Part shown: piece after piece, positions 25,301 through 61,857 of the stretch | Numbering within the stretch: position 1 is the first letter of the stretch | How the letters are laid out: each line of letters starts with the position of its first letter | Assembly (NCBI GenBank): GCA_026874595.1 | Contig: CM049306.1 | Span: 59,464,019-59,528,018 of the forward strand | DNA from: Sipunculus nudus | Taxonomy: Eukaryota; Annelida; Sipuncula; Golfingiida; Sipunculidae | Direction of reading: 5' to 3' | DNA length: 64,000 nt | The notes under the pieces: model-generated | The model's input: only the letters and a program-made list of their open reading frames with translations | Database searches by the model: none | What the model was told of the DNA's origin: nothing | Translations under genes and position numbers: made by a program

Positions 25301-25758
25301 GTCAGCCGGTCTCCTTATCTGGAACGTATCCATGAACATCAAACGTGACCACACAGCTGGCCAAGGCGTCGTCTGTGATTTGTGGCCAGTCCAGTTGTGT
25401 CATATGTTTTACGTAATGTTATCAAAAACTGGTCAGTGAGACCTCTTCTCCAGTGCAGTAATCTCTGTAATCTCTGTCTCCCGGGCGATGTGGCTTTTGA
25501 TGCTGGCAGCTATAATAAAGGAAGTGTCTAGGCAGCCAACAATGTCGGCTGCGGAGCAGCAGAGTCCTAGAAAAATCTAGGCAGCCGACATTTTCGGCTT
25601 TTCACAGTCTAACCTTGCATGCGCAGCCGACAATGCTTTACTCGATATTACAAGCACTTGTGTTGTCTATGCATGTACACAAACATTTAATATTTTGTTT
25701 GTCATTTACAGAACTGATATTACAGACGTGAGATATATACATAATAATTAACATGCAC

Positions 25759-25816
<58 letters not shown>

Positions 25817-28800
25817 CTTACTAACGTGCCATTTTATGCATTTTGACAACTCAAGGTTTTAAGGTTTAATGCTCAGAGGGTCAATAATTATATATAAGGT
25901 GCATTCTAAATTTATAGGCATATTCTCACCAAGAACTCAGAATCTGATCTCCCTCCATAGATGATACAAACTTATCGTCATAAATGTAACTAATTGGCCA
26001 ACAATGCATGAAGCTAAACAAGAACCCACAAAAAAAATCTATGGGTCATCATAGGGGATCAAAGGGATGTATTGTAAAACAAACACACTATCAACAATGT
26101 GTACAGGTATGGGGCATTAATGGAGAGAGCAGGGGAGTTCCCTAGTAATTAAAATACAAATACCTTTTATGGAATACATGTGGTGTCAGTGTATGTATTT
26201 CATTGCATAAAAAGTAAAACATGTTCATTACTATTTGAATCATAATATATTGAAGGTTAGGCTTCATTTTGCTGTTTTTCTTAAATTTAGCTACTGTTAA
26301 CCTAGTCCATTTTATCCTAGCCATTATCAACCTAGCTATTTTTACCTTGGGCTTTTTACTTAGCCCCAAATGATGTTAAACAGTCTTGTATTTTATAGTT
26401 TGTATATTTGAATATATAAGGTCTTTAATATCAGTACTATAAATGAAAGACACACAATATGCTTGTTATACACGTTAAAGCATTGTCGGTACTACTGAAA
26501 GATAAAAAAAATCCACAGTTCAACAGGTTTGCTTGAATAAGGGTAAAGGGTAAATTTATGAAATCCTTAAATGGCAGACAAATTATAAGTGTGAAACATT
26601 CTTTTTTAGTAAATCGAACATATATTGCATGAAACGCTCTACATTAGGGCGTTAGTTAACGTGATGTTATCTCAAATATTTATTTTTTTACCAACTTTTA
26701 TTTATGGGAACAAACCAATTTCTGCATACAGGAATGTCAGCGATATGTTGGGGCGCTGACAGGCAGTTCAAGCCCGTATGTATATATGAGGTTTGTTCCT
26801 TAACTAAACTCAATGAGAAGGCCATATAACTGTCAAAGTGTCGCGAGCACAGGTTGAATTCTTTTCATCCGGCGGTATGTAGCAGCCACGGATAACAAAG
26901 CTCATGCCGGTACATTTTATTTGGTGGCCCCAGTGGACATTATTACCGGGTATTACTTGGCAGGCAAATGTGTATGGTCACGCAACGCGGACGGTCCATC
27001 TTCTCCCGTTCCGCAGTGATGGTGGCGGCTGTTAGTTAATCTTGAAATATGGTTTCTCCCACGGGCGCACGGTCGTAACGCGGCACAAAGGTGACATTTA
27101 CAGCTAATTCAATTTCGGCGGCAATCTGTCAAAGAGCATCCCAGCGCTGTCTGTCGGCTCAATAAGCCTTACAGAGCTATTAATTCACCTCGCGCTTGCT
27201 GTCCCTGGCTGGCTGTAGCGGGTATGCTGGTCTGTGGAACCCCAGTCCCAACGATTTATCTCAATCTGGCCGTGCATTGACGTTATCGAGTGATTTATTC
27301 TCCGGTATTATGGCACCATGCGGTCCAGGTCGAATGCTAGCAGCTCGGCAGTTGCTCCTGTGGCAGTGCGATCAAATCGGCTACTTTGCTTAATACAACT
27401 ACTGTTCAGCTCTGAAAGCCCGGGTGTGATATGGGTTCATACCTGATCAAAAAGGTCCCTTCACACCCCGTCTTCCCGCCCTCTTTATATCCTATCCATT
27501 TGCGATATTTCAGAACTGTTTTGAAATCCGTGCGCTCGCAAAGTTATGTGCATGGACACAGCAAAGCATTGTTGAGGTTGGGCTACATTTAATCCAAAGA
27601 TAAATTATTTACGTGCTTATTATCATGCATAGTTTGATCTCTTCTGCGTCTTGGCATATTCCTATTTATGCTTGGGGCTGGATATTAAAATTGTTAGGAC
27701 CCGTCTCTTTATTTGATTTTATATGGGTTATTCAACCAACTTCGACGTTGGAGAGTCTTCGTGTTTTGACTTCAGCTTTGAACAAACCAAAATTCCAAAA
27801 CGGATACTTCAGTATGCAGATTTTAATCAGTATTACTTTTTATTATTCGTCTTCGTCAGTAAAGGGAAGTACTGACAATACCTGATATATATGTAAAGTA
27901 CACAACTCTTGAGAGCTAACTGCATTTCATAAGTCTTTTTTTAGGATAGGTCCGTGGACTGTTTATGACACTGACTGTTGGTAAAGGATGAAGGTATCCA
28001 TACGATAATAATGATAAGGATGTTATAATAAAATCTTCTGTATTTCAGGTTTTATCTGTAGGGGGTTAGTTGTAATCGAGAAGGTATGACCTGTCGTCAG
28101 GATATTAGAGCGAATCTCTTTGGGTCTAACGAGATCTCACCATGCAGTATATGCCATAAAGGCACAGGCGGGGTTTGGACCGTGGTCCTTCTGCTCCGTA
28201 GTCTAACGCCTTAAAGGGGCATAATCACCAATCTGACATTTAAAACTAAAGGTAACCCCTTGGAGCTGATATAAAAAAAGACCAGAAAACGTTGATATCA
28301 CTGCACACAGGCTGCTCGTTTTGCTTATATCAACGTGTTAATAATATGTGGGGACCCTCCAAAATAATCAAAACAAATTCTTCAAGGGCATCTGGCAGCA
28401 AGTCAAACAAGCCAGCGCTTTGCAAATTGCGTTTTGCAACAAGTAACCTTTCTACTTCCGCATATATGCAACCTAACACCTAAGGTTATATTTTTTTTTC
28501 CTTTTGTCAACATTGCCGTGTTTATAAACACGTTGATATATAAACAAGTTCATACATCCTTCACGGAGGCGTTATAAGAGCTTTTCATAACCAAAATTAC
28601 CCTTAGATTATTAATATATACACAGAGGAAGCCAGAAATCACATAAATTCTTTTTCAAAAGGCAGGTGAATGCGCATCTTTAAACTCCGGGCTGCGTCCT
28701 ACGCATTTAATAGAACTTGATTCTCTAAAGAAAGGAAGAAAAACACGAAAAACTGATCACAAATACTCTGGCTTTTGTATCTTTTGTTGCACGGTCGTTC

Positions 28801-31562
28801 AAGGGCAATGATTATGCTGCAAAGGTTTGGAGCTCATTTCTTCATTCGCAACTATCGTCAGAGAGAAAAAATGCAGGTCTTCCCGAGAATCCAAGAAAAG
28901 GTTAACGAATAGGTCAGGTTAAATGTGCGGGGTTAAACCGTGACGTAATAACATACGTTTGTAAGTAAAATATGTTTCACACTCGGCCTGAGATGCCTCA
29001 CGCGTGCATGCGGTTTGACAGTGGTGATATATACACGTCTGTGCCTTTAGACGTGAGACTCCAGCTGGATCCAGGGACTGTAAGGGTTGAGATGTGATGG
29101 TTCTTGTCAAGGCTGGACCGTGCTGTCCAGTGTGTTGTTGTAGTCATGGTGTAAGGGTAGATAGGTCAAGTTGAGACTGGTCTCATCAATCATCCAGACC
29201 AGTCTTGGGGTCAAGCCAATATGTAATGTCTTAGGGTGTATTTCTCTTACCCATCCCCTAATTTCCGGAACCAACATGTTTCACCTGGCCGACCACCAGG
29301 AATATTCAAGCACCCGGGACTACCGACGAAATCTACCCAGTCAAATCCCCCCCCCCCCAGAACAACAATCAAACTGGTCAAGCATATACCTCCACATGCC
29401 CCCTGTGTCACTCGAACATACACCCACACCATAAATCCTAAAAAGGGTTACATCATGCATTTTAATACATTCCAGATTAAATGGTAAATCCTTTGTAGAT
29501 ACACATAAATGTGTATCTGAGCGTTCAGGAGTGTTATATGAATACCACTGCCACTGCAAATAAACCATTTATACAAATTGTTAACAATTAGTGTTTTAAT
29601 TGAAAAAAAGTTTTAATAAATTCGAATTAAATATCATGAGTGTTCGTGATAGAAAAAAATCCAAGAAATGAATAATAATAATAATAATAGTAATAATAAT
29701 AAGTAGTTATCATCATCAGAATCATAATTTTAATGTGAATAATATTTTACAAGCTATGTCGACGTTAACCTTACACTTCTTTACGTGAACTTTTTATCCG
29801 TGAAAGTATTATCCGAAGAGTGGGGTAGGTTAGCTGGGCGGGTATTATTGGGGAGGGGATGACTTTAGCCAGGGGAGTTTTGTCGTACACCTCAGCACCT
29901 GTTGCCCACTGACATGGTGGCCCACTGCAACATGCCTTCTCTCATCGTTGTAAAAACAAACCGACTTTGAACCCCAACATAAAGTGTGCCATAGATTACA
30001 GGCTAAAGATGCCGGGCCTGGCTGTAAACAAACAGAGACAAATGATAAACAGTAACGCGAAGTGATGGATGGTGAACAGATTTATCGACCCTCATACATG
30101 TAACGATACGGAAATAAGAAATAGCCCTCGTTGATGTGGCCCCGACGGCTGTGGATGCGATCAGGTGCTGAACGTCAAACAATGTCTGTGTCATGATGTT
30201 CTGTCGGGATCATAGACATACCTTCAACATCTGACGTTTTTATTCCCGGAATAATATAGATTTTAGCAATGTCATATGTCTGGTTGTGAAAGAGAAGAAG
30301 TGACCTTTTTTCATAATATACTGTATGGCAACAAAATGATCACATGCATGCATGATAATGCAGCGTTTTCCACTAGCACCAGCGTTCTTTCCCTTTATGA
30401 TGGAGAAATGATAGACTGAATAAGGTGTCTTGCTGTAATATATTCATAACTGTAATGGAATTTCTGATTATTTTGTCAGCCACCATTTTTAACCTTTTTT
30501 GACTGCATGCATGGATGAAATTAGTAATTCTTATTTGCCGAGCCTCGGATGTTATGTGACTAAATTCTTTCATTGTTGAATTTTGTATACCTTTGGAAAA
30601 TCGCGTGGTTGGGCACAGGAATTGGACTGTGTTATGCCAAAATATGTATGAAAATATTTTATTCAGCAGGTTTTAGGAGACTTAGCATAATTGTAATCCC
30701 AACTTGGTCATAAATTTTCAGTTATTTGATTTTTATGGTCTCCCATATCCTCACGACGATTCTCACTGAAGGTTCGCCCAAGTCAGAACATGGAGCACTG
30801 TTTGCCTTGTATCAAAGGACCCGAACATCAAGTGCGAGGGGTCGCCGACAGGTGTCAGATGTGTGGTTTAAAAGGTTCATTGTATACATTTTTTCTCGTC
30901 CTTGCCAGAAATAAAAACAGAAGACAAAAAGCGTTATGGATACCTTGTATGCAGAATGAAATTCATGTTGTAGTTGTACACTTTTATGCATAACGATTAA
31001 TTTTGTCTTATGTTTGCAGAGACCTCAGCTACAACAAAATAAAAGTCATCGGAGAAAACACGTTAAAAGGAGCGCCTTTACTAAAAAACTTGTGAGTATA
31101 CAATCTTAAACACATATATAGTAGATAAACAGAAACTTTAAACAATTAATTAAGTTTTCATTTTGGCAAAAAATAAGTTGACAATAGGAATATATTAATT
31201 GTGAAGGAACTCTATGAAACGGATAGTTTTTAGTCTGTATAATTATAAATAAGTTCCCATGCAGCAAAGTTTTCGCCAGTTTATGTATATAATCACTGCG
31301 AGTTCATTTACCATCAGAGGAGCGTTATCTCTTAAGGTTTGCCACCCAGTACTTCAGGCGGATGTACTGATAAGAATGTTATTGATAAAGAAGGTGAAAC
31401 TGGTACAACCACTGGAGGCTCATGTATGATAAAAGGCTCTGGTGCGGATGACACCCTTAAAGTCTGAACTGTTCGACTTTAAACGTTGACATTTACTTCT
31501 ACAGTTTCCTCTTTCTCTTTCCATGTACTATCTGGCTCATTCCGTATACGAATATAAATAAA

Positions 31563-31618
<56 letters not shown>

Positions 31619-34600
31619 ATAACATTTAAGACTACTCTGTCTTTATAGAGATTGTGATCAAGATCTGATCATTGTAATGCTGGCCAAAATTTATTAACTT
31701 ACACGGCCTTTACTTCACTAAATATTACATATGAAGGACAACTAAAGGGGCCATCGTCAGACACGTACATGTAGAAGAAGCCAATCAGTATTTTTAATGT
31801 ATTGAGTCAGTTTTAATACGAGGTCTGTTAGCCGGAATGAATGGACCCATTTGCTCCACGTGACAGGGAACGGGAGCGTAATAAAAAGGCTGAAGGCGTC
31901 AAACATGAATGGTTATGGATCTGTAGATGTGTCAATAAAGGTGCTGGCGTTCCTGAGCACGTCCGGGCTATAATGTGCAAAACGTGTCCGTAAGCCACAA
32001 GGGTAGCTGGTACTGACCCTTTGTTAGCAAGGACGATTGATTCTGTCACCTCGCCATCGTGGGAGCTGGAAGAAACTCCTACGGTTAAAGCAGTTAACTA
32101 ACTCCCTGGAGACTCCAGCGGTTGCCTGCGAGCACTCGAAAATAACGGATTGCCTTTGCGCCTTCTAATAGAAAACTAGCCAGTTATTGTTGAAAATTTA
32201 TCTGCTATGTTTAGGTGGCATTGGACTTTGATTGGAAAATGTGTCGAGTTACTTATACCTCAATTAACCTAAAAAGTTAATGGCTTTATTGCATATACAT
32301 TTGATTAAAATATGCAACACAGGAATTTATATTAGTAATAAGTATTTGACCTCATTTTATACTTGTGCATTATTGTATAATTTTCATTGGAAAAGAAATT
32401 ATCAATATGATAAGGTTTTCATGAAGAGTCGAAAAGAACACATGCATTTCGTGTAAAGGCATATTATTATAAGTAATACAGTCGGTTTATACAGTCCTTA
32501 ATATGCGATTATTTACCAGTATAATTACCAGTGCATGTATGCTGTATAGTAACTGTTGTAACCAGCTATAGTTAAACCAGTGTTAACTATACGGTATTGA
32601 GCGCTAATTGTATAAGATGACCTGCATATAATAAACCACAGGATCGGGGACCCATGCAGTCAGACCCTAGCAGAATGCAACACATGCAGATAACAGGTTG
32701 GAGTAACATTTCAGCTTCTCCCAAGCAGCAGAATTCCCAGTCCACGTATATATACTCTACGCAGCCTGTATATGACGCTAATAGCAATATGCTGTTAAGG
32801 AAAATGTATATAGTCCCAACGCGGTTTCATTTCGTGAAGAAAATAAAGATATATGTTTTACAAAAGAACACACTTATTCTCATTCCAGGCAAATGGACAA
32901 CAACGAAATTACCTGTCTGTCAGAGATGGCGATCAAGAACTTGAATTCCATGGAGATATTGTAAGTGTATTGGTTATCAGCAACTGCTACAGAGGGACTA
33001 TCTCCACTTTACTTGTGACATATATAAGACTCTTTTCGCTTTTAGCAAATGACAAAGGTATAATGGAGGAATAATCTACTAGAAAGCTGACCATTAAGGT
33101 TTAATTGTTATGTATATACGTATATGCCACATTTAATATCTGCACTTCACATGAGCCGAATATTAGTGGTCACCCTGCAGATAACACCGTACATTTAACA
33201 TATAAATAAAGCCGGAACTTATATGCTATTGGTTACTATATAAGTAACGCCTTTCATTGTGCATCTTTTTTAAATGTAACGTTCAATTTTTTTCAAAATT
33301 CTGGAAGAGTGTGAAAGCTCAACATTCAGCTCTCTATCTAAATTTACATGGTTGACTTTAGTTACAAATTTTATGACAGATATATCGGCGTTTCATATTT
33401 AGAAATGAATGCGGTTGTTGCTCTTTACCAGTATATTTCTTCACACAGTAATTGTAGATTATGAACATTTAGTTTAGCCGTGCAGTTGAGAAGGTGATGA
33501 AGGCGAGCAGGTTTGATTAAGCCTTCATTTCTTCCTTTTTCCGAGTTACTGAATTTAATCTGGCGTATCTTGAAATGTTTGAAAAACAAGTGCAAAGTAA
33601 ATTGCAAGAGAACACTTCGTTCTCGTAATTGTCAGGAAATTTAAGTCATTGGGTTAAAACTACAATGCATGTGCCCGTCGTAATTTACGTCCAATTTCAT
33701 CCCCTACTAAAACATGAAAGGAACATCTTTTTAACTGCCTGTCGTGTATTAATATATGAAGAGTGGATAGGAAGAGTTGACGAATTACACTGTAACTTCA
33801 ACAGCAAATGAGGTCTGATATAAAAAAAAAGCAAAATATGATCCGTCAGACTATCCGTTGTTTTTCGAAAAGGAAATACGATAGCGTTTCCATGAATCAA
33901 GCTTAATCATTCATCCGACCGACGTAATCCTGTCAGGCGGGGGGTGGAAACTGTGCGGAAAAGACTGGGGGTTTAAGCCGACACCTGTCAGTTTATCAAA
34001 TAATTCGTTTTTAAAAGCTCTCATGTGCTGAGACAGCTGCTGTTCGCAGGCTGACGAAGAACAGCCTAAGCCTGATTTTATGTAGCGTTTATAATGCGAT
34101 TTCTTCCTGTTGGTTTGAGACTGATGCTATAGGACCATTGCAGGCAGTCGCTATAAACATGCATTTTTCCAGATAACTCGTGCTTTATCCACATATAAAT
34201 GATGCCGAACATTTACAACCATCTTGCAGTATAGTACATTAATTTGATTAAAGCATAATGCATTTCACCTACACTTTTATATGTTTACCTTAATGAATAA
34301 ACCAAATTGATGGTTTCGCAATCATTTGTTCCTTATTTTTAATCAGACTTCTGTTACTGGATTGAAGATAAACTGCAGATAGACACTTTCTCGAGATTTT
34401 AGAGTTATGTGGTGGTAAATTCCAGCCTATAACTTAATTGTTTATTATCACCGAATCAATCGAAATTATTAACTATACCGTGACACAGATAAAGCAACTT
34501 GATCAAAATGCACTCTGACACACTGTCACTTATATGTACTCTAAAGTTTAACGACAATATATTAAAACTAAATATCACAAAATAAGGAAACGGACTTTTC

Positions 34601-37600
34601 AGGAGTGCAGATTTTCATTTGAACATGTATTCATTTGAAAACCTTGAAGATATATGCCACTTGTAATAATATGAACATTTGTACTTTAAATGAATACATG
34701 ACCGGCATCATGATTCTTAATTTTTATATTACTGTACTTCCTTTTGATATAAATTGAGATTTAATAATAATATATGTCTTTTATTTTCAGAACATTGAAT
34801 AAAAACAACATGACAACTCTACCAGAAAAGATCTTCAGCAATATGAACAAACTAAGAGTGACGTAAGTTCTTTGATATCTCTCTTCATGAATGCTTTTAA
34901 AATCATTTTAATTATAAGTTTAAAACTACATTTTTAGAAAAGGTAAAACTGAGCTTACAACGTGGTTATAGGTTATAAAATTATGTTACATAATACTTAA
35001 TAGTTCATGGAAGTTTTAAACATTTCCTTCAAATTTTGTTTTTGTCATTTCAGGAGGATTGCAGATAACAAGCTCCGATGTGATTGTAAATTAGCATGGT
35101 TATCCCAGTGGTTGCGCACGCATCCGACCCTCGCACTTTTCACCAAATGTGCCGCACCGTCCGCGCTCAAAAACGAACCTATTGCCGAGTTAGAACCCAG
35201 TGACTTCAAGTGTGACGGTAAATTCAGCTATCCTTTTCTCTCTCCTCCGGTGCACATCTCAACTTTATACTTAAATCCCGATGATGTAAATAAACAATTG
35301 AATCTTTATGATGTAAATAATCAATTGAATCTTTATTTTATAATATCTATTTAACAAAACCCTTGTTTGAAATTCACCTTTTCTTAAACCTGTTCAAACC
35401 GAAAAGACCGAGAGGAAAAATCCACCGTGAGAACAGATTAGATTTTGTTAATTGTTATGAATGGTTTCGTATTATCAGAAAACGGTACATTTCAGCTTTA
35501 TTCAAACCAATATTTCTAATATCTTTGATGTGGTGAAACATAACCTGTCAATATACCTGGTGCCTATCGTCCGTGCACAGAGAGAAATTTCACAGAAAGG
35601 GGCTCCCGATTGTCACATGCACAGTTCTTGGAGTGTTTCTTTAATAATTAATCGTTCAAGCTACTTATCAAGTAATGAAAAACACCACAGAAATAGTCCC
35701 AATGTGAATTTGACCAAAGATGAAGAACATTTGTTCCTATTGGGGCCTTTCAGAATGGGTTTATCATATGAATGCACCTATTTCGAAATCCATTTCGCAG
35801 TGTTTCGGGCTTCCAAATGATTTCTGTGCTGGTACTAGTTAATGACACCTTTATGGGCCACGCAGATGAAAGATCACAGTCCAGCCACATTAACCATAAC
35901 CGTAATATCCAGATAACGTCCATCAAAATGCCACAACCTCGGTCAGACCAGACGCCTCTTTTGATTGTGGTTTCTCGGGATTTAATCACCCATGTACTGA
36001 GGCCGCCACCATATCCATGGAACGTTTATATCTACTTTTGGTCCAGTTAGGGGCAATGCTATAGATTAGAAAGCGCGGCCACTGTTTAGGAATTCATATT
36101 TTAACAAACGCTCAGGATTGTAAACCTGAACTCAGTCCTATAACCTCATAAGTTCTCGTCCTTTTTTATGAATGCTCTTCCTGCAAGAAATGTTAAAATT
36201 ATTTCCATAGATGATATGGTAGTTTATTTTTTAGTATATAAAAAAGTACCATGTAAGATTCAAAAGTCAATCGCACTTGAGTGATAGAATATATAAGATA
36301 TAAAGCTGAATGCAATTATTCATGGATTTACAATCGTGTTCGAACGAGTTATTCTGTGATTGACAAAAAACCTTGTTCATTTGACAAACTCTGATGTCCT
36401 TTTAAGAAAGAGCAATTCATCAATTACCATTGTACGTATGTAGCTTGGTCGCTTAAATTCTGTTTTTAAATTATAAAGATTAACCCTTGTATGTGCAACG
36501 CCATCCCGACGGAGTTTAAATGTTTATAACGGCTATCATGATATATCGTTTTATCGATCGATGCATGGTGCATGTCGTTGCATGTCTACTGTCAGGCGTG
36601 CCTATATATACTAGTCAATAAACTTGACGGCCTCACGTGTTGTAAATTAGTCTCGTACTGTTTGAATTAATTGATCATTTCGTTTTCTTTCATAATCAAT
36701 TAAATTAGTTACATCTTTGCATAATCGATCACAAGGAATTATGTAATGCATACACAAAGAAGTCATTTTATAAACAAAAACTCACCCCTTGAGACATATA
36801 AAGGACTTGACACAAAGTATAACGAGCAACATAAAAACTGAACAACATGGCCATTTATCTTTACCTGTCAGCGTGATTTACAAGTATATAGGACTGGATT
36901 CACTCGGTAAATATACTAGGTGAAATTTCATACAGAAGATTTAACGGTAATATATATATATGAAATAATCGATTAACAATCTATCAGATAGTTAAATGGC
37001 AAGGAAATGTGTATTGGCAAAGTTAAAAGCGGGATAACGCTTTTTTCGACCACACCAAAATCCTCAAATCCTAGTGTGTTATCATCTGAACGTAACTGCC
37101 TTCCATCATGCAGCGTCGCACAGTTATGTAAATGTAGCATACCGATGTATATAACTAGGTGTCATGTATTTTTATTACTAGAACTTATATGTACTGGTAT
37201 CAATTCCATTGTTGTATATTAGTAAAAAAATTCAAGCCAGTATTTACCGTGCAAGTAATATACCCGCACCAGCAACCCCGCTGCACCGCAGAAAATGAAC
37301 ATGTATATAAACTTCCTTTGCTGAATGTCCGCAAGTATATGTTTGCTGTTAAGTGTCTACACAGAAATAACTGTGTGATCCTAGGCTTTATTATGTATGA
37401 CATGTATAATCATCAACGATGAAACGCTGCGGTTTTGAGTGTACATGACTAAGTTTTCTATATAATTATACTTATAGTTAAAGTTGCAGGTCTGTTCGGA
37501 AGCACATGCACAAGTCAACAGCCATGTATATGGTTGGCTATTCATGCCGACTGTATATATGTTTAATCTCCCACATCATCATCATCATCACCATCACCAC

Positions 37601-40600
37601 CGCCATCATCATCATTTACACCACCTTCATCATCATCATCATCACCATCACCATAATCACCACTTCCACCACCATCATCATCACCACCACCACCTTCATC
37701 ATCATCACCATCATCATCACCACCACCTTCATCGTCATCATCATCACCACCATCACAACCATCATCACCATCAAAATCCTCATCATCACCACCATCATCA
37801 TCATCACCACCTTCTTCATCATCACCATCACAACCATCATCACCATCAAAATCCTCATCATCACCATCATCATCACTCATGATTGAAATGGGACCTGTGT
37901 ACCGATCGTCCTAAATGTAATATAAACTTTCCAACAACTAACAGCAACTTAAACAGAAAACTTATATGGTGATTTGAAAATAAAAGCATGTATTTAAATA
38001 CTTATTTGATTCCACGTTCTTTTGACATTCTTTTATTCAAGCATGACAAGCGCCCAGTAACTGCGAGTTTGTGCGTTCGGTACACAAAAAAACACTCTTG
38101 GCAATAAACGAGCAGCATGTTTAATTCGTGCATGAAGAGTTAGTTTATTTGACAAAGATCGGCTCACTTGACTTCCTGACACCCATTACATGCTTAATAG
38201 CTGCATGTGTTAAAAGAAAACGCCGCGCACCGGTGAGGTCAAATTTTTCATTATTTACCGCTGGTCTCCGCTAGGTTGTCAGGTGTCTCAAAGAAAACCG
38301 TTCCTATTATAACAGGCCTGACATGAGCCGAACCCAGGCGTTGTAGTGCCAGAGATGTTGTTTCTAGCTGCTAATAGGCGAGGTGCAGGTACGACGCCCT
38401 TTCAACTTCGTCTCGTTCTTCTTCTGCACAACGGCAGCGCTACCTGTCACAGATCTCGGTCTTTAGTCCCCTTTTTTCTGCTCCTGCCAGCGGGCAGCCC
38501 TGTATCTTCATTAGCCCGTTGCTGTAACGTGTTAAATCAGGCTATTGTAGCCGCGGGGAACATTAGGTTCCAAGTCGGGTCACGTTCCCTGCCGTTGGCG
38601 ACGAGGGGACATATAACTCGCTACCAACAGCTTGTAGATTATGAGGCTTTCCACAAGTGTCCCCCGCTGGATGTGACTGCAATGGAAATCACAGCACACA
38701 TTGTGTGATGTCTTTATCCTGCATTAAAACAATAAAACAATCTTTGTATGAAACTAGTTAGTGGCGACGTTCAGACAGTTGCATTGTAGTTCTTATTCTA
38801 CGAGAGCGAGATCATCGAGAGAAAAATGTTTATATCGCATTTTGACTCGCGCTTAACTAAAAAAAACCGCATGTTGTGTTGAAATGATTTGTATATACGA
38901 CAACAGAAGAATGATGCAACCTTCCCCGCGTGGTATTACAGTACGCAGTATCAATATACTACTTAAACTACTACAAGACGGCCAGGAATGGAGATGTTGG
39001 TGACACCTTCGTCTGTAGCCAGTATTATTTTGCGACCATGGCAAGCCTTTAAGTCACGAAAGAAGGCAGTTGTTTTTGGTTCTTTGTGTCAGCATGGAGC
39101 TAGAAAAAACGGCGTGGGTCTGCTTTATTAGAGAGACGTTAGCTGTTGCGTTAATATTCATCAGTGTGATTTCCCGAGCGCTGTCAGTGGGTCCCAGATA
39201 GGCCTGGTGTGTTAATATCGTCAGATGGCCATTGACAATGTGTTTTATCTTCTTGATGGCGCTATCCCTGCGCTCGTCACCATGCATTCTTCCCGCCACC
39301 GCTGATCTAACCCGACGGTGCAGCCAACATGAGGCAAAACTTCAGGCGTTATTCATACAAGACCTGAATGATACTAACGTCACTTATAGAACGGCGAGTA
39401 CACAAAAGAGCTACATTGTGTGTTAACCTAAAACAATCAATTCATTCCTACAGAATACTGGAAGGTTGCAGATGTATTTTACCCGCTACTTTTTTACGTA
39501 ATTCTTTTTTCATCAAATATTTGTAAAACTCTCCGACTTTTTATTATTTAATACTTATAATAATTATAACCTCCTTGTAGTAAAGTGCACAAAATCATAA
39601 TCAGCCAGGCGAAGCTTTAGTGAGTTTTCAGTGATAAAAAATATACTCTTCTTGAGGAACACATGCAGCATATAGCAGAATACCTAAAATCCAAGTAAAA
39701 AAATATAACATTTTTATCATAGGTTTACTTTCAACCACATTCAATAGACAGAGCCACCAACAGGCCTATTACTCAACTAGATAGAACATCTCTATAATAT
39801 TTCTTAAGGACAGAACTGACTATAGTTTTGTGCGTTTCATAGCTCAGTGAACACAAAAACACATTAGTTATAATAACGATCCCTTAACTCCTCCAAGCTA
39901 GACATATAAGAGGAAGACTGATCCATGAATGGGCTGGCCAAGACGTGCCAATTTCCCATGAACGTGTGCCCTCCCTTCATCCGTTTAACCAGTGACAGTA
40001 CCTGGAGCCCACATTGTTATTAGCGTATGAGATATGGCATCCGTAGCACTATGTGGTATTTCTTGATGATGTTTGAAATCAGATATGGATCTCCACTAGC
40101 ATAAAAAAAACCTTCAGATTGCTGCTTGTTTATAAAATATCCTGCATGCTGTACCAGTGATTGGCAGTATTTGCAGAGATAGGGAATCAAAACAAGGGTG
40201 GGGTCCAACATATTTTTTACCCAGGCTAGTGTACATTATGTTTTGCCATCATTGAATGGTTTGTAGGTTGGTTGTTTGCTCGGTTGGTAAATTAATCTGA
40301 AAGCTTGAAACTGTTTTGGTTAAGGGTGCAAGGAACAATCCATTCAATTTTAGAGGTAATCTGGATCAACATCAAGATTCAGAAATTATATATTTTTAAC
40401 CCTTGGGAGATCATTCACTTGTATTTAGGCAAAATTACAGTGCATCTTTTTTATGGGATGACATTTTCTTAAACTTTTGTCAGAACATGTGTGAGCAGAG
40501 TTGATGGTACATTTTATTTGTTTACTTGACAGGCACAGAGAGCCAGGACCAGGACTGTACGGTACCACCTGTGTGCCCCTATGGGTGTACATGTACCGGT

Positions 40601-40689
40601 ACCATTGTGGACTGTAGAAAGAAAGGAATGAAAGAAATCCCACATAACCTGCCCGATGCTGTCACAGAATTGTAAGTGGAGGAAATTTT

Positions 40690-40744
<55 letters not shown>

Positions 40745-42210
40745 TATATATATATATAAAGATGAGAAAATGTTCTATTATTGACATTTGAGGAAGTCTT
40801 CTGGACATTAGTGATTTTGTGACTTATATAATTATAAACATTCAGATATTCATCATATATTCAGTGTATGACTTTCACAGTGACCTTCATCTTTAAGGTC
40901 AAATCAGCCAAAGCATTGTTTGTGAACACTCTAACCACTTCATATTTTTCATGAAATTTGATACATGAATTGTTTCCCCTGAAATCTCAGACGAGTTTGA
41001 AAGTGGTGACTTTGACCTTCATCTTCAAGGTCAAATCTTCAGAATTCTAGGATTTTTGTGAACCCATCAATTTTTGAAGAAGTCCATATATTTTTTACAC
41101 AAATTTTGGGTTGCAGGGCCCATAGGGAGGGGATACATATATATGTTTTTGCGGCTGCAAAAATAAACTCATTCTATTTTTGTTGTTGTATTCAGGAAGT
41201 TACATTGTAGCCAGGGGTTGAAACTTACTTGCCTTGACCTCTTAATTGACAGAATAGTATCCTAAGTACATGTTCAAGCTGTTGATCTTATGAAGTATCA
41301 CTTTCCAAGGGGAGGGGAGGAGCTCTCCCTGCCTGATAAACCAGCTGTTTGGTCCCCTGTTCTGGCCAGCTGTTGAAGATGTACCTGGCTGGCCTGCCAT
41401 TGAGTCTGTATATAGATATGTAGATGTGAATAAAACCAGCTTGACTGACAGATCACTGTTGTTCATTGTGTGTAACATTGATTTATTGTAAATATGCCAG
41501 TAGTGAAGGATATCTCTGTTGTAAATATACCAATAGCTGGTCTGAAAACCACGCATACACACATACACACAAACATTCGTAGAAGAATTACACATATACA
41601 TGTACCAGCTATATATTATTGGTGTTCCAGTTAATCAGTTATATTGAAGAATGGTCATTTTCATTCATAATCACTTAAATTGATTGCAGTTTTGAATAAT
41701 CAGTCTCATGCAAAACAGTCATGTTATCTATCCCCAGCGTGGCTGTGAGTAGGTTGTAGTAGCCAGTCCAAGGCCGGTGGTTTCTTCTGGGTTCTCCAGT
41801 TTCCTAAACCCACAGACACTACCGAACACCACAACCTGAGCCATGGAGATGCCTTGATTAGTTATAATAACTATTTGTATAATCCATGTTAAATAAATAA
41901 AGTTTATAGTTTTAATATCTAGAAAAAAAATATTCTAATCCTATCAGAGGTATACAAAAGATGGACACAATGTAGCAGACAGCAGTATAACTGAACTTGT
42001 GCAGTGAACAAGTGTCAACAATGTGGCCATAACCATGAACCTTCAGCATTTTTTAAAAGTCAGACTGCATTTAATCAGTAAATATATTAAGTATAATTCT
42101 GTACATTAAATTTAGAATATACAAGGTAGTTAAAATATTTGGTTAAAATTGATCATTGGTCGTTTTTTTTTCTTTCAGTCATCAATCATGTTTAACAACC
42201 AATTTCTACA

Positions 42211-42263
<53 letters not shown>

Positions 42264-45200
42264 TGCTAATAACTTGGTTGTTAATACCTGTAGGTTATTA
42301 ATTTTGTACCCATTTTATATGTGGGCCAGGTTTCAGGTGGAGTCTTATGTCATAAAAAGCACTTTCTAGAAATGATGTATGAGCCACAGCTGCCGAAAAT
42401 GTGTTTTTATTCTTCGTTTATAACTGTCTGCATAAAGGATCAAGTCTGTCAGACATAGAGAGGCTACTCCCCCTACCATATGACTATACTGAATCATTAG
42501 CAATTATAGTAAAATAACTAAGATATGAAGTTACATACTGGAATATAGTAAATGTACTTGTTGTCACCCTCCAGCTCTGGCTTCGGTAATTATCATAAAG
42601 TGATTATAAATGACAGCTCTTTTGGTTATTGTTTGCAGGAGACTGGAGGAGAACTTGATATCAGAAATCCCACCAAAAGCCTTTGTACAGTACAAGAGGT
42701 TGAGGCGCATGTAAGTACTTGAATTTGTCAGTGACTCAGTAGGAAACATGAGTAATAAATTCTGTTAGATCAAGTGGACAAAAAATAGTCTGCATAAATT
42801 AAGAAGATTCAGAACAGTTGTGGTTTTGTCTGCAGGAACAGTTTGTAGTGTTTCTTCACTCTGTGGTTTCATATTAAGACATCTCTAATCCACTGTACCT
42901 GAAAAAGAGTATACCTAGATGAAGGGTTGACACATTTTTGTTAAACTGTACTGTATAATGTGCATAATTGCCTTTGAAACCCCTAAGGTAAACTGTATGT
43001 AGATATTGCAAAAATATTGATCCCTTGCAAAAAACGGAAAAGTGGATATTGCTAAATTTTAACCTCACAGACATGTAGCAAACCACACTATAGGAATCCG
43101 AGTTCATCCTCAATTATTGTACAAATCGATTCAAATATGTTTTAATAAGAACCATCTTGGATTGCTTTCAGTTTCACCAATTACTTTGTTTTCTGTTTGT
43201 ATCATAATTAATAATGATCTACCATTTCAGTGATTTGAGCAAGAACCAGATATATTATGTGGCCCCGGATGCCTTCGCTGGACTAAAATCTCTGACATCC
43301 CTGTGAGTATATAATCATCATAACAACCAATTAAGTTTCAGACATAAATACCCCTTTCACATAGCAGATACAAAAGTTTCCAAATTTTTTTCAAGATTAG
43401 TTGAGTGTTCACATGGCAATCCAGAATGACTCCAATCAAGATAAACCAAAATGTTTTGAAACCTGTTCCTTGATATCAAGGAGTTCCAAAACATTTTGTG
43501 CTTGTCCATGTTAACTCTTCCAAACTGTTATGGCACATATCCAAAAGTATTGTGACTCATGCTAAACAATGACTGGCGGATGTCTTCATATTGCTAAACA
43601 CTTGTGCTGCAAGCCACAAAGCTTGACTCGAGAAACATCAGATTTAAATTTTATGTTCTGATATTATTGTCACAAGCTAGAACTGCACAAAATTCTGGTT
43701 ACTTCAAGAAATATGTGATCAACTGTATGAAAAACTTCAGAAAAAGGAGCAAAGATAGTTTTCAGAGAGCTTGTTTTCTCATCAATTAATGCAGGTTTTA
43801 CTAAATACCTTCTACAGAAAGAAGATGGGATAAGCTCTTGTTAATTCATGTTATTTCAAGACGAAGGTCTTTTCTGTTAATTTGCCATATCACTTCATTT
43901 AGAGTAAATAATCTTTTTGAACTTGCAATGTCAGTGTCTGACTTTAGTTAATTTGTTAATCATGAGAATGAATTTGGCTGAAGAAATGAAACACAAGCTA
44001 TTTAATATCAATATATATATATTAATATAATATATCATATAATATTAAGAAATATTTAAGTTTTAATTTAAATGTTAATCATGGTGTGTGTATATGGACA
44101 TTAATTCAACTGTAAATAACCATTAATCAAATAAAGAGATTTTATGTGAATAATGATAATCTGCAAATATGTTTAAAAAACCTGAGGTTGATCTACAAGT
44201 TACAAATGTCATGGAATAAATTAATACCACATGTAGTCCTGCCGCAGTAAGTTTTCAATGGACTGAACCTGGGACATAGTTGTACCAAGGACAGCCTTGC
44301 CCAGACGTTGTAATGAAATAATACTTTAATGGTGGTGGAGCAAATATTATGTATATATCATGCAATAAGTCACAAAATAAGAGCTCCAGAAAATCTTATT
44401 ATCCACATCTGCGATAAATGTATGCTGTTCGGGTTCTTATGGAACTGTTATCTTTTCATTGTTGTTCCAAATCTGTGCTAGCATAATAAAATAAAGACCT
44501 TCATTCAATTCAATTCTTGGTGTTATTTTCTAGTTTTCCCCAATATGCTTAGGTTCTATTAAATTACTCCTTTTAACCAAGTTGACTCAATTTCTGTTGA
44601 AAACCACAAACACAAAGGGATGAATTACCGCTATATAAGATGCAAAACTGGATATGGTTACTCAAATGCAATAGTCCAGGTGTTTTATAAAGATGAATAA
44701 AAATGATATCCCATATACAGTAACCTATACAGTCTTTAAATGAATTACACATGTTCATAAGAATATATATCACATCAGCTGTACTCTTTCAGTAAGGGTC
44801 TGGGAAGCAAATTCAGTTTGCTTTCATGATAGGGGTTTGTAGCATTATGATGTTGGTGTTATCAGTCTTAACTCTTTTGAAGGGTGGATTCATTATGTTA
44901 CAATCTCTGCAAAATTTGTCTTGACAAGTACAGGCTGTCTGAGTAATAACATTCTGCAAAAGGCCATAATCAGGCAAGTATCATATCTTTCTAAGAGTGC
45001 TAAAAAGTGCCTGTGTCAAGCCCTAAACCTACATCTAATAAATAGGCTTAAGACTCTGTTATATCAGCAGTGATGATCTTTTCATTCCGGCTGGGATGGT
45101 TCTTACTGTCGCCGTGACAACATATGATTTTGGGTTAGCATAACCTGTCATGTCAGCTGTAATCTAAGCACTAGCGTTGGATGCCGCCTAGTTTTATCCT

Positions 45201-48200
45201 CAATTGAGACATTAATGGCTGGACCTCCATTGTGTGATTTGATTTCGTCAGAAAAGTAACCAGTCAGCACTGCGTTGTCTGCATATTCATCACGCATCCA
45301 CCGCTGGCAGAACCCTTAAACTTCCTGTGACAGCCATAAAGCCTGCTGCAGCATGCATGCTGGTGTGATGGTTAGAGCCCTGAACTTGAGTAGGCAGCAC
45401 TGTTCAAGTCCCATTCTGACCATTTAATCCCACAGAATACCCTTAGCTAAGGTCTTCATTAACAAGTTAACGGGTACTGGTCATGTTAATGTATCAAGAT
45501 GTATAGTATAGCTCTCATAGACCACATACATCAACCAAGGCAAAAACAATCCTATTGGATCTACCCTTTATCATTCACAAACTTTTAATGAGATTTTCCC
45601 TGGCCCCTTGTGAAAGATTTGAGGGAATTGATCAATTCTGAACTTTTTGCATACCCCTGTTAATAAACAAACAAGACAACATTGGTGAAGACATAAACCC
45701 CCTTAAGGAAATAATCCCCTGGCCTCTACTTTGGCTAGGTTGGTTGCCTGCTCCGCTGCATGGAAGCTTAGAAAAGCTACACAAATGAAGAAGCCATAAA
45801 AAATGAAGGAGAAGTGTGAATTCTAAGTTGGATGACTTTTACACATTTGTGATATCAAATAATACAGCCCCTTGATTTATTAAAGCTTAAAGCCAACTAT
45901 TCATCCAGCTTTTCTGTAGAATTTATGAGACTATTAGCTTACTCTGCATACATATAAATCAACTGTGTTCCTGATAAGAAGAGTTCTTACAGTGTCTCTA
46001 GTGCTGTTATAGATATATATATATATGAGCTTGTTTATTTGCAAGCTGTTAGTAAACACAGCAGTGTTGACAAGTTACGGAAAAATAATGTAACCCAAGG
46101 TAGTTGGTTACATATGTGTGGAAGCTGAAAGGTCACTAGATGCAAAACACCATTTGCAAAACTCTCTAACTTGCCTATAGATGTCCTTGCTGAATGTGTT
46201 TGGATTATTTGGTGCCCCCATTTTTATACACCTGAGCATAAACAAAATAAACAGCCTGTGTGCAGTCAGAATGGCATTTTCTGACCTTTTTTGATAAAGA
46301 GTTCAAGGAATTATCTTTAATTTATACACATCAGATATTTGAAAAGGTATTTAAAGGTACTCAAAGGTTTTTTATTGTTTTTGCCACTTGAAGCACACTG
46401 TATAACCACACATTTCTACAACAATGAGAGGATTAGACCAAGGTCAAGGTCAGCGTGAGATGTGCAGACCTGGTTTGATGACAGATGGTGATCAGCCTAA
46501 GGGAGTTAATCCCTAGGTCATGTGGCAATGACATAAACGTTACACCTGCGGTCACTGTGCTCATCTTTTTTAACTGTTTAGTCATCAGCTAATTACCTTG
46601 AGTGCAAATGACTTGAGTTTCTTCATTATGGCTGATGAAGATGGAAACCAAAATAGTTGACTTTTTAAAATTAAAATTGGACTTTTGTCCTTAAAGAGTG
46701 TTGCAAACAGGGCTCTTACAGAGTCTCTGTTTGCAAGCGTGACTGCGAGGGCTCAAGGGTTGGATATTCTGGACTCAAGCACCCAACAGATGTTACCCAA
46801 TTTGGACTCAAGTACTCATCACCATGAATTACTACAATTTGCATTTATATAAAAAATACCACAAAAGGGAATTTAACATCTTTGTTTTCTGTTATCCTCA
46901 ATGTGCTTCTTGCTTCACTTTCAATTTGGTCATGCATCTGCTATTTTATCTAGTTGTATAATTGTAAGCTGGTGTCCAAGATCTTTATACAAACTGACCC
47001 ATAATGTCTTCCAGGTTGTTGTATGGGAACAAAATCACAGACTTACCATCAGGTGTATTCAAGGGACTACACTCTCTACAGCTACTGTGAGTATACAATA
47101 GATTAACATCTATGACAGTTGTCAAAAAAAAGTTGATGCACTGGTATAAGTTTACCTGTATACATTCTATAAAAACTGAGTAAAGGTCATCCATGGTTGA
47201 TCAATGTTGACATAGGCCTATATGAAAGATGCATGAGGTTAAGTATAACAGACATTTACTTTAAAACTTTTTAATCAACCACATTAAATAAAAAAAATTA
47301 ATTCAATTAAATTGAAATTTTTACATTAATAAATTTATATCAACTCTTTTAGAAAAAGGTAATTAAGATTGGAGAAAGGAAAAGATTATATGTTTAATCA
47401 TTAATGAAATATATAAAACTGTTTATTTTTCCATGAAATGTTATAGAATTCATTAATATCATTACATTATAACCTTTTCAAATGATTCTTTAAAGTGTGT
47501 TACATTTTTTTCAAGTGATATTGACTAGTTACTTATTACATTTCAGCTTGCTGAATGCTAACAGGATTACCTGCATCAGGGAAGATGCCTTTGTCGACCT
47601 TCACAGGCTCAATCTCCTGTAGGTATATACTTCCTAGGATTAATATTATGCAGTAAAGTGAAACCTGTGAACTACCCAAAAGTGGTCTTAATTCACAGGT
47701 GGTCTTATTAGACAGGTCTTATATGACCAATGCGGATGTTTTTGTTCACTCAAGGGTGGTTTCAAAAGAAAAATGGTCTTATTAAGTAGGTGGTCATAAA
47801 GACCAAGTATTTTGTTCTGTTATATAAAACGTACACTTGATATTTTTTTATAGCAGAATATAGTAGATTGACTTGAATTAGCCTATTGTTGAATTTTTTA
47901 ACCAAATTGTACTTTTTATGCTGGTATGCTTAGTGATATGTAAACAGTGATCATGTAATTAAACCGATGAACCTTAAGTCTTAGACTGCATGCTAGTAAA
48001 TAGAAATAAACAAATGAGTATAATGAAGTAGTGATGATGATGATGATGATGACCTGTAATATTTTTGAAACTTTAGAAAGAAAATCTTACATGTTTTGCA
48101 CTTAGATTGTCAATTTTTAGCTATTTTAAGAAGAAGGAAAGTTTGTGATAGTTTTTTCCAACAAAATGTTTTTGGCAGTGATTGTTATGTGAGTAATGAA

Positions 48201-51200
48201 CATCATATTTGTTTGAACTAAGTTGATAATTTTTGTTTTCTGAAATCTTTACAGGTCCCTGTATGACAACAAAATCCAGTCATTGGCAAATGGAACTTTT
48301 GCTCCGCTTAAAAACATCCAGACATTGTAAGTACAGATTTTCCATAAAATTTGTTTACTCTGGGAGAGCTCTAGACCTTCTTAGTTAATGTCATATTATA
48401 GGTATTATAATTACATATTATACATATTATAATAATCTGCAAAAAAAATATCCAGTAATATTTTCACGGTTATTTATATCACAACCACATTATACACTTT
48501 TTATGACAGAATTTTTGTGACCTTGACCTGATGACCTTTTCTTGTGACCTTGACCCAGTTAACCATTCATAATTTACCTTTAGGAATTCAGGTCTCAAGT
48601 TGATTTATTCATAACAATGGCTGATATTTAAGAATCAATAAAGCACGATGTATTATCTTCTAACATAGCAATGAGGTTTTTTTAAATTTTTTCAAGTTGT
48701 TTTTATTTTCATTGTATTTGCCAGACACCTGGCCCTCAACCCATTCATCTGTGACTGTAACCTCCGATGGCTGTCAGATTACCTTCACAGTAACCCCATA
48801 GAGACCAGCGGAGCCCGTTGTGACACACCCAGAAGGGTGCAGCGCAAGAGGATCTCAGGGATCAAGGCCTCAAAGTTCAAGTGCAAAGGTCAGAGGTCAT
48901 CTGGTGTTATGATTTACTGACAGGGACAAAGCATGTGGGTGGGGAGGGGGACAGGTACAGTGCGTCAAGGTCATCAATTGAACTGGGGGACACTCATGGT
49001 TTATCTAACATTCACCCTGTCAAATACTTGAACAGCCTCTTGTTTTACCAGGGGGACATCCCCAACCTGTCACCGAGAACCTCAAGTTGTTGGGTACAGG
49101 TGAAGAAGGTCCATGGTCACCCAGTGTAATGTTACATCATAAGTCTGAGGAAACATTAAAAATGTAATGCAGACCACCATAAACATATCTTATGATATAC
49201 AATAACATCACATGTCATTTATTTTAATGAAGGATCATTATCAAAAAGTATACTATTGCAATACATCATGCAGTCAATAAATATATTCATGTATGTTGAC
49301 TCAAACCTCTTCTACCCAAAAATTGGTTTAAACTGTATTAAGCAAGGAAGAATTCACAGAGGCATAATTGACTGAACCAGTTTGCAGTAAGTGCCTGCCA
49401 GTACCCCCCCCCCAAATTTGAGACCAGTTTTTGAACATGTTTATGGTCACTAATTTTTGCAAGTGTCTAAAGATTGTGAAATCACCTCCCTTACAATGTC
49501 TCAAAATGCTTCAAAAGTGTTGTTAGACTAATAAGAAAATGCCTAAATTGCCATGTGAACACAAACCATTTTGTACCTGGTTTCAAAATTGTTTATACTT
49601 GCTATATGAGAAGGGTTACCATAAAATTGTACAATACTACACAAAGCAGTCGAGTTCCTAGACATAATTAGATCATATTTAATGACTTCAGTAATATTAG
49701 TAATGTCGTGCAGTAATTTTTCTTTGCCTTGGATTCGCATGGGACAAGTGACCTCGATTGTCATTGGTGGGGTTGAAAGTTAATTAGTTTCATGCCACAA
49801 TTAATGCCACAATCACAACTAATGCTTTTGATAATGAATGATCCAGTATAAAACACTTCAGACATACAGAAGATAGTGTCAACCATTTTGTTATTAATAA
49901 TATTATTATTCATATGCATGAATGGTCCAGGACTTTTATAAATTGAGATTAATGACTGTTCTTCAGTATATACATATAAGTAAGCATGACTAATAGATTT
50001 TATTTAATTATTCACTGTAATCATTTAATCTAATAAACCTTGCACTGTGACAGGTTAACTCCCTGATTTATGCAAGGTCAGCACTTTTCCCTTACTTCCA
50101 AGTCTTTGCTTTATAATAAAATAAACACTAACCAAAGATTTGTAGACTCATTATTTTAACTGCAATAGCAAGGTTCAATATTTACAAATTTTTCTGGTGT
50201 AGATTCAGGCAAAGCAGAAAATTTGCTAAACACTAAGAATTTTACTGGATCCACATAATGTTACTTGTTTTCAGGATTTTTTAGGGAAATATTGTGAAAC
50301 AATTCAAAGAAAAACACTTTATATACACATCATGGAAACTTAGGGAATAAAAATATTTACATTTCAGAAATTATTAGGAAACAGGGTAAAAATAAGATGT
50401 ACTATCATGTTTTTTTTGCCAGTCAGGGAGGTGGCACTTATCAAAGCTGAAAACTGCTAGAAAAGTCAGGTGTCCAGGCATGTATTTCACGTTCTGGATA
50501 AGAATGAGTCTTGGGATGAATTAAAGCCAGATTCTTTGTTGAGAGGAGAATATGTTTTAAATAGGATACAAAAGTGGGACCAGACCAAGGGTTAGATGAA
50601 ACATCTTTGTATAAAAGCTTGCCATCTCAACTGGTTTAGACTTGAAACCCGAAACCGTGAGTGAATACTTGTGTAGTGTATCCAATAAAGCCTACACCAG
50701 ACAGGGCAGACTGTGAGTGTTATTGGTATAAACAGAAGATACTAGGGCTGGCAGAGGCCAGAGTTATCTAGCCCTGGTGAGGGCCTCATTAGTGCTTTAG
50801 TTTCTTCTACTTTTTCTCGACAGCAAATTGGTGTCACCAATTGTACGTCCACAGGGGGTGGGGGCAGGGAGTCAAGAGACTTTTGTCTTGTTTTTGAACT
50901 GAGTGATGGAGAAATGAGTGATTAATAGATTCAGCACCAGGACTTGCCTAGCCCTTGTTATGTGCCATTTGACCAGGTGATCTGAGCAGAGAATATTAAA
51001 CAGTGGGGATCCTTTCTCAGAGATAATGAATCTATTGAGCGTTCCTGATGGTTTCATTCTGTTTGGGTTCTGCCACTGTAGTAGCAACTTAAAATCAATT
51101 ACACGCTCAGTTGATATCTCACATTTCTTAGGAATGCCAGGCAGATTAAGATGATGTGAAGAATTCTAAAATCTCCCTTGTCTTGTTTTAAGACTCCATT

Positions 51201-53480
51201 ATTTTCTTCACATATACAGTGCAACCTGTCTGATAGACCACTTGTCTAATAAGACCTCTTGTCTCATAGAACCACCTGTCTAATGAGACCACCTGTCTAA
51301 TGAGACCACCTGTCTAATGAGACCACCTGTCTAATAAGACCTCCTGATATTCTGGATATTCCAGATTGTCCAGATCTGCACAAAAAAGTGAACTGTTGAT
51401 CTTTTGTAATAAGTTTCCTTTGGAACTCTCTACAAAAATTTGTGGAAATTGGTTAAGTATTTTTGGCATTATCCTGCTAACAGGCAAACAAACCAACCAA
51501 CTAACATACAAAGAGACACTGATGAAAACACTATCTCCTGGGTGGAGGTAACAAACAAACAAAAATGTGTGGAAGAATAGCCTTCCTGGCAGATGCAAAT
51601 GACTGAAATTCCGATTGTTCTGTGTGCTGCCTGACAATGAAAATAATCCATTTAGAATAATGCACACTTATTTTGGTGAAGTCATAATAATGTTGTTGTT
51701 TCATATTTATGAGCACCTCTTTTTCAAGTTGCCCTGGCCTTAAGTCAGAGGGCAGAAACAACAGAGGCAGACTTTCTGCTGATTTAAGTTCAAGGCTGAA
51801 TACAATGTTATCAGCCAGGGTTATTTGAAGAGTTAAGTAGAAGGTTATACAGTGATGTTTTATTTACATGTACTTAGAACTTTGAGGGCAAGGCTAAATT
51901 TATCTTATCACCAGATTTTGTAGAGTAAAATAGAATGTTAAAGTTTTGGTTTTATATTTCAATGTTTAAAACCAAAATCTCTTTGAGTAAATGTTTTTAC
52001 CTTATAACTTTTGATAATAATTCAAATTTATGAATTAATTCATGTTTTTTGCTTAGTTTAATAAAATTGATTATTATATTGCTAGATAATAACAGATTAA
52101 TTGGCTGCAATCTGCTATATTGAAATTATTTATTATAATATATATTTTATGTACAATCTATTTTACCCTGAAATATGCTGTAAAGAATTATACCTAAAAT
52201 ACTGACAGAGTAAATTCAGGCTTATTTGTACATCATGCTGAAAGGTCAATGTAATAGTCTGGTTAATGAAACTTATTCTTTGCATAAGGTTAATTTTCAT
52301 TGCAGTTTGTTGTTTTGTGCCTGTCTCTCCTATCTATCTTACAGAATAAGAATATTTTGTTGGGATAATTTGACTTCATTTGACGTGCATACATAAGCAT
52401 TTATTATATAGCTTATGCAAAAATGGAATCAACTTAATTGATAATGAAAGAAAACAACCTATCATTGATATGATAGATTATTTGGCAGTCACCACATTTA
52501 AAATAAAATTTAGATAAAAAAAATGAAATAGAAAAACACCAGCATAAAGGGTATATTCAATTATTCCAAAGGGAACACAGATGAAACCAGCCAAAGTATT
52601 AAAACATAATCAAAACATTTCAGTACAGTATGTCTATGTGTAAACACTACAGGAAAGTTTATACTTCAAAAGGTCAAGAAGAAAAACAGTAACCATCCAG
52701 ATAACATAACACAGCATTGTTATGTCACGGCAAATAATATCCAGAGGAAACACACAATTTTATATGAGACACAGGCCACCATTTCTCCCTTTCATGTGTT
52801 TAATTGTTTGTCAGAGTCACTGAGTCATGCTGGGGGAGTGTAGTGTCACTAAATGTCTTCTGAACAATTCCTCCTGGCATTTCCTGCTTTGATGAGGTCA
52901 CAGTCATTTGGGTCAGGGCAAATTAGGTGTCAATCTAACCAGTTCTGTCCAATATTTGGAAGCCCATATTATCTACTGTGTCTTGGTTAATCATCATTAC
53001 AAACAAAGGATCATGAAACAATGGAGTTGTGTCATTCATCAGGCCAATAATAACATGTTAATTGTAACAACTGGCATTCTGAAAAGGCCAGTACAGAACA
53101 GTAATACAGTTAAATTACACTGGTTGTTTAAGTAATTGATTTGCAACTGTTTTCTTGATTCACAAACATCGTATCATTTCACAGAATGACCAGATAAATA
53201 TGAATATATCTATTATTGTAATAATTAAATCATTGATATTAAATTGTAATTTAAAAAATATTATAGTATCATAATTTTTATGAATTTATTGGTTCTTTGG
53301 TTGATTGAATGAAATGTTCAGGATTTATTTCATTAAGATAGTAAATGTAATACTAACGTTTCTGAATCATTACTGAGCTCACTATGGACAGATATTATTA
53401 AAATACATAAGAATGTAGAATGTTTATAAGAAAAATATAACATGAAATCTTGAAAAAGCATGAATGTCATGAAGAGAGCA

Positions 53481-53543
<63 letters not shown>

Positions 53544-59500: not shown

Positions 59501-60290
59501 TTTTTGTATATCTGAATTTGGTTGAGGCAATTTCTGTGACACGCACAGGAGGATGACTGTCCTGCTATTTGTCCATGGGCAAAATATGAGGCATACAATA
59601 GTGTCTGTTTACATGGACCACTAGTTAATGTTAGTATGGTGTTTAAAGGTGGTGAGAATAGCAGTTGATGGAGTTAAAAGGTTAACTGGTTTGTACAATG
59701 GGAGTGGTGAATAATGATAACTAACAGAGAAAGTGAGATCTTGAACTCTGACCTGACCTTGATGATGTTTCACAAAGGTCAGGGGTGGGAGAGATTTCAG
59801 TTCAGTGACTTGATAATATTTGTTACATCTGCTGCGGTTACTCATTATCCTGACAATCCTAAGAATGAAACAAACATAATTAAAAAACCTGTTATCTATT
59901 TGGTGGAAAACAACTATGTGTATATATAAGTGTGTATTAATATTCATGATGCATATTATTAAGACACAGTAAGTGCTGCATTGGTACACTTTTCTAATTC
60001 TTTACTACATGTATATGATTACCCCTATTACTGGTACATGGTAAATGCAAAACATTTTGGAATCATTCACTTAATTCCAGCCTTATTCATACAGCAATGC
60101 AAAATGTATCCTCTCTATTAAACCAAAATATTTTGCAACTTTATAAGGTGGTGGTTTCAGACTTGTTTTAAAGCAGGTAAACCAAAACATTTTGTATCTT
60201 CTCTGTGTAAATTATAACAAAACATTTTGGCATATATTCAAAGCATGGTAGCCAATGTACAGGCACAACCTCTGAATGCCAGGCTGTCAG

Positions 60291-60328
<38 letters not shown>

Positions 60329-61776: not shown

Positions 61777-61845
<69 letters not shown>

Positions 61846-61857
61846 TAACATTAATAG

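Follow-up and report, generated by a model that had tools for sequence, protein, structure and literature searches.

In the sperm of Ciona intestinalis, DNA methylation is described as a mosaic of long domains, either methylated or unmethylated, whose edges are sharp and in which repeat copies adopt the state of the domain that surrounds them (PMC3827831). Genes in this organism are bimodal, being either almost wholly methylated (>0.9) or almost wholly unmethylated (<0.1). The same work describes line E, a transgene inserted in a methylated host gene, whose start lies in an unmethylated stretch of about 800 bp on the upstream side and 1 kb on the downstream side (PMC3827831). In the oyster, methylation climbs sharply after the gene start, stays level and then declines slowly past the end (PMC4378273), although the exon results of a later oyster paper contrast with that plateau, with the first exons showing the lowest levels and the internal exons higher ones (PMC5612690). 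Methylation also rises sharply after the start in a sea star, declining toward the gene end (PMC12550476), and two annelids show hypomethylation ahead of the start (PMC11292947). These descriptions, as well as the comparisons made below, are based on excerpts of the papers cited. Among the open-access literature matches listed, represented by their titles and abstract openings, no intragenic edge of the kind presented here is reported.

The stretch of Sipunculus nudus DNA analysed here (64 kb, called the window hereafter) contains part of a slit gene in which CpG is frequent on the left and scarce on the right. The features of the window are displayed in Table 1. As in the Ciona sperm domains, slit shows long contrasting domains, a sharp edge and repeat copies that follow their domain; unlike Ciona, the division runs through a single gene, tens of kb away from that gene's start, and what is seen here is a scar and not 5mC (PMC3827831). 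As in the oyster, the pattern is mosaic and low at the gene start (PMC4378273, PMC5612690), but the first 32 kb of slit, at least, are unaffected, unlike the oyster's rise right after the start (PMC4378273). Ciona line E offers another likeness, namely that a start within a gene can hold an unmethylated stretch followed by methylation. However, that insert lies in a methylated host, whereas the left side of slit looks unmethylated over at least 40 kb (PMC3827831).

Table 1. Features located in the 64-kb window (positions are those of the window; o/e, observed/expected CpG).
Feature	Position	Strand	Details
CpG step	39497..40112	.	Change point with 2-unit support interval; most likely position 40042
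CpG-rich, unmethylated-looking part	1..40042	.	o/e 0.86
CpG-depleted, germline-methylated-looking part	40043..64000	.	o/e 0.20; continues past window end
slit D1 LRR3 exon	7524..7595	+	72 bp
slit D1 LRR4 exon	31020..31091	+	
slit D1 LRR5 exon	32889..32960	+	72 bp; AG...GTAAGT; top score of the exon scan, 52 (next, -18)
slit D1 LRR6 exon	34791..34862	+	
slit LRRCT1 exon	35054..35217	+	12 CpG; ends in phase 1; Pfam LRRCT
slit D1-D2 intron containing the CpG step	35218..40532	+	GT...AG; matching phases
slit LRRNT2 exon	40533..40671	+	First exon right of the CpG step
slit D2 LRR exon	42639..42710	+	
slit D2 LRR exon	43231..43302	+	
slit D2 LRR exon	47015..47086	+	
slit D2 LRR exon	47547..47618	+	
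slit D2 LRR exon	48255..48326	+	
slit LRRCT2 exon	48725..48888	+	4 CpG
slit LRRNT3 exon	61487..61637	+	
slit D3 LRR exon	63700..63774	+	
Dispersed repeat, left copy	28231..28557	+	8 CpG
Same dispersed repeat, right copy	46021..46336	-	1 CpG
Dead partial copy of LRRNT3 exon and its upstream intron	61233..61394	+	0 of the live copy's 3 CpGs left

The slit exons were located by tblastn with a human SLIT2 query, together with splice-aware reading, and the one missing D1 repeat exon (LRR5) was sought by a separate exon scan. The exons are ordered on both sides of the CpG step, five on the left and nine on the right, and all 14 are flanked by AG before and GT after. The LRRNT2 exon starts in the phase that matches the end of LRRCT1 (phase 1), so the frame is kept across the step. 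The best matches of LRRCT1 are slit chains (E = 7.8e-09), and LRRCT2 matches the SLIT2 N-product chain (E = 1.4e-24). With the Pfam LRRCT cut-off at 20, LRRCT1 passes at 24.7 and LRRCT2 falls narrowly below it at 19.1. No relative of the LRRCT2 exon was present in the viral contigs scanned. Neither LRRNT1 nor D1 repeats 1 and 2 were found in the window by tblastn or the exon scan, and the gene's own start would therefore lie more than 32 kb to the left of the step.

The CpG step is real and very strong. A model with one change point in the window gave a log-likelihood ratio of 202, with fitted CpG rates of 0.856 to the left of 40042 and 0.196 to the right, and placed the change inside the D1-D2 intron, about 490 bp 5' of the LRRNT2 exon. 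When the window was divided into 1-kb bins, CpG o/e ranged from 0.57 to 1.17 in all 40 bins of the first 40 kb and from 0.08 to 0.35 in all 24 bins from 40 to 64 kb. In 2000 trials of block shuffling (500-bp blocks) the maximum was 38.5, versus 200 observed. Moreover, the 1-kb counts were no more variable than Poisson within each half, leaving out the block 40001-41000 (chi2/df of 0.90 for 40 left blocks and 0.87 for 23 right ones). Concerning its shape, a sharp step fitted best, and ramps of 1500, 2000 and 3000 bp were worse by 1.2, 1.8 and 3.8 log units, respectively; since the wider ramps fit worse, the edge is taken to be no more than about 2 kb wide. The original prediction had placed a CpG boundary in this intron on the basis of five CpG counts (15, 12, 2, 3 and 4). 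All of them were exact on recount, and both the change point and the clear fall in o/e agree with it. A second change point gained little, at best 2.7 units within the left part and 3.8 within the right, the latter being a weak CpG rise at 63176, perhaps a sign that the domain is nearing its far end, perhaps not. Just before this position there is a 30-bp minisatellite of about 12 copies (62650-63018).

The loss is specific to CpG and carries the signature of decay. CpG odds fell fourfold, from 0.860 on the left to 0.197 on the right (z = -26.1), and GpC odds remained nearly flat (1.061 to 0.980; z = -1.6). The odds of both expected products were raised to the right of the step: TpG from 1.143 to 1.306 (z = 6.1) and CpA from 1.185 to 1.313 (z = 3.4). 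CC and AG odds were likewise higher on the right (z = 5.1 and 4.1). Nevertheless, TpG and CpA account for only part of the CpG loss, since per kb the right side has 27 fewer CpG, about 10 more TpG and no gain in CpA (71.4 to 70.4). Such a shortfall is expected only if many of these products have mutated again, as the lower G+C of the right side (0.391 on the left, 0.344 on the right) suggests.

The CpG loss was also followed in the exons, and repeats shared by both sides and a dead exon copy served as natural controls. The five left slit exons carry 21 CpG in 452 bp (o/e 1.05), versus 15 in 889 bp (o/e 0.31) in the nine right exons (Fisher p = 0.0014); one left exon, that of LRR6, has none. 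Within the right side, CpG per kb is about three times higher in slit exons than in the remainder (16.9 vs 5.4), which is predicted if decay is opposed by selection and is partly due to the exons being richer in G+C.

Eight repeat matches between left and right were found, two of them microsatellites; the best match of a dispersed family had E = 4e-36. In the other six alignments, 17 CpG sites of the left copies correspond in the right copies to one CG, 11 TG or CA and five other dinucleotides; these sites are not all independent, because one right stretch recurs in three of the six alignments and one left stretch in two. In the reverse direction, one of the four right CpG sites is CG in the left copy, and in the GpC control 10 of the 24 left GpC sites stay GC on the right. 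A pair of 25-mers (40881-40905 and 41013-41037) has the ends TGACCTT...AAGGTCA, which resemble nuclear-receptor half-sites, and belongs to a repeat also present at 21.1-21.5 kb.

A tandem duplication (61233-61560, about 165 bp, 86% alike) takes in the start of the LRRNT3 exon. In its first copy, which is dead, the acceptor CAG reads CAA, and the three duplicated CpGs of the live exon appear in it as TG, TG and AG. Presumably CpG was the ancestral state at these sites. This points to loss within the right half itself, with only three sites to go by.

Regarding these data, the pattern of CpG decay agrees with methylation that persisted in the germline over a long time and was confined to the right. 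The step is most probably where an old, stable germline-methylated domain has its 5' edge, inside a single slit gene. To the right of about 40 kb, germline methylation would have lasted until only about one fifth of the expected CpG was left, and the left part, with its five or more slit exons and the accompanying introns, would have remained unmethylated. CpG-specific depletion, an excess of TpG/CpA odds and an edge of no more than about 2 kb, all hallmarks of methylated gene bodies, are present. An edge soon after the gene start, which is typical but not defining of such domains, is absent, as LRR3 lies at 7524 and the edge at 40042. The earlier suggestion that only the 3' part of slit is germline-methylated finds good support by proxy in CpG loss, TpG/CpA odds, exons, repeats and the dead exon copy. 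CpG content is an imperfect proxy of methylation, because one oyster study, in the excerpt used, saw no obvious relationship between methylated or unmethylated regions and CpG content (PMC5481141).

Concerning the cause of the edge, its sharpness and its position at least 32 kb into slit suggest another start near 39 kb, because published edges follow starts and are sharp on that side. An internal germline start there is our leading candidate, though a tentative one. A germline transcript that recruits methylation would begin within slit at about 38.5-39.5 kb, heading rightward, and methylation would set in some hundreds of bases past that start, as at ordinary gene starts under mosaic methylation. 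It is possible, with rather more doubt, that such a start is evolutionarily fixed and gives a slit transcript lacking the D1 exons. The methylation scar would then be its record, and while CpG decayed the edge of the scar would have kept to within about 2 kb.

An internal promoter or a shorter transcript beginning near 39-40 kb, as the original prediction had contemplated, was not borne out by the searches for it. A search of 37.9-40.53 kb for another first coding exon, with a GTRAG donor and in phase 1 to the exon at 40533, found none; this search is not strictly defining for an internal promoter, as the first exon may be non-coding. A relaxed look gave a single hydrophobic, signal-peptide-like open reading frame of 35 residues (39094-39198, plus strand), with poor donors only, which is a weak lead. 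Near the step there is no GC box, and the one TATA match (40131) is already to the right of it. One CCAAT lies at 39948. Words resembling Inr and DPE also occur, and they are so short that they say little. CpG density gives no sign of a promoter either, since the dense stretch at 38.0-39.4 kb is outdone at 26.8 and 1.15 kb and matched at 22.8 kb, all on the left side.

Strand skew was also considered. GC skew is +0.037 (SE 0.019) on the right versus +0.002 (SE 0.010) on the left. By block permutation the p values were 0.29 for G+T excess, 0.065 for GC skew and 0.13 for TG/CA, and the observed values were reached by 2, 2 and 13, respectively, of 114 rotations, a number that counts the observed arrangement. 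The skew hints at plus-strand sense transcription of the right part only, and it is not significant. The right-hand GC skew would fit germline sense transcription if it were found in related species too.

The main rival to an internal start does without one. Slit is a developmental gene, and it could be transcribed at full length in the germline, with a wide Polycomb-like or H3K4-methylated domain keeping the methylase out of its long 5' part, where the promoter and 5' introns lie and elements of developmental control would abound; the edge would then be a chromatin boundary. This suits a developmental gene and a stretch that looks unmethylated from the window start to 40 kb, and it needs no new promoter, in line with none having been found. 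On the other hand, Ciona genes are mostly all-or-none (PMC3827831) and in the oyster methylation goes up immediately past the start (PMC4378273), according to the excerpts cited. Moreover, full-length transcription predicts skew on both sides, whereas the weak skew is seen on the right only (p = 0.065). We consider a protected 5' domain somewhat unlikely.

It is improbable that the methylated domain is that of a different transcription unit lying over the right part, such as an antisense or nested germline transcript. The domain continues beyond 64 kb, which leaves room for a neighbour. However, of the 18 open reading frames of at least 80 aa on the right, one is slit and none of the 16 tested with Pfam reached the cut-off; four of these gave matches below it (E of 0.01 or worse), the repeat frame at 62631-63026 was left out, and the Pfam scan is weak for short exons. 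In addition, neither an Rfam match at the gathering score nor a tRNA (ARAGORN) was found within the window, and the weak skew favours the plus strand. The edge is also sharp, whereas the excerpted oyster data show methylation fading slowly past transcript ends (PMC4378273). Together, the internal start, the protected 5' domain and this overlapping transcript take up most, though not all, of the probability.

On the left side, 12 of the 63 listed open reading frames, two of them close to the step, were scanned with Pfam, with none at the cut-off and four matches below it. A minisatellite at 15011-16629 (45-bp unit, 36 copies) has open frames on both strands, the longest of 315 aa on the minus strand, which look like the openness of the repeat and not like a gene. 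Vertebrate slit genes carry mir-218; here, a microRNA host-gene reading is unsupported because no Rfam family matched in the window.

The window could also be a chimeric assembly of two genomes that differ in CpG content, and this would account for a step that is single and sharp. The CpG-free tetranucleotide distance between the halves (0.282) is slightly greater than those within them (0.242 and 0.251). Nevertheless, the exons from LRR3 to LRRCT1 on the left and from LRRNT2 to D3 on the right are consecutive and in phase, dispersed repeat families are common to both halves, and the dead LRRNT3 copy lost its CpGs within the right half itself. With gene order and frame unbroken, a chimera was set aside as very improbable, in agreement with the original prediction, which had regarded it as the less likely option. 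Finally, a boundary of base composition or mutation bias without methylation, which would fit the fall in G+C, the shift in CC and AG odds and the flat CpA per kb, is hardly credible and was also set aside, since CpG odds fall fourfold and TpG and CpA odds rise with GpC odds nearly constant.

The slit gene of S. nudus thus appears cleanly divided, its 5' part untouched over at least 32 kb and its 3' part eroded over at least 24 kb. A gene divided in this way lets one ask what places a methylation edge, the start of a transcript or a chromatin domain. Furthermore, CpG profiles within genes hold information about edges that per-gene averages hide. If the edge does follow an internal start, hidden germline starts could be mapped from assembled sequence alone.
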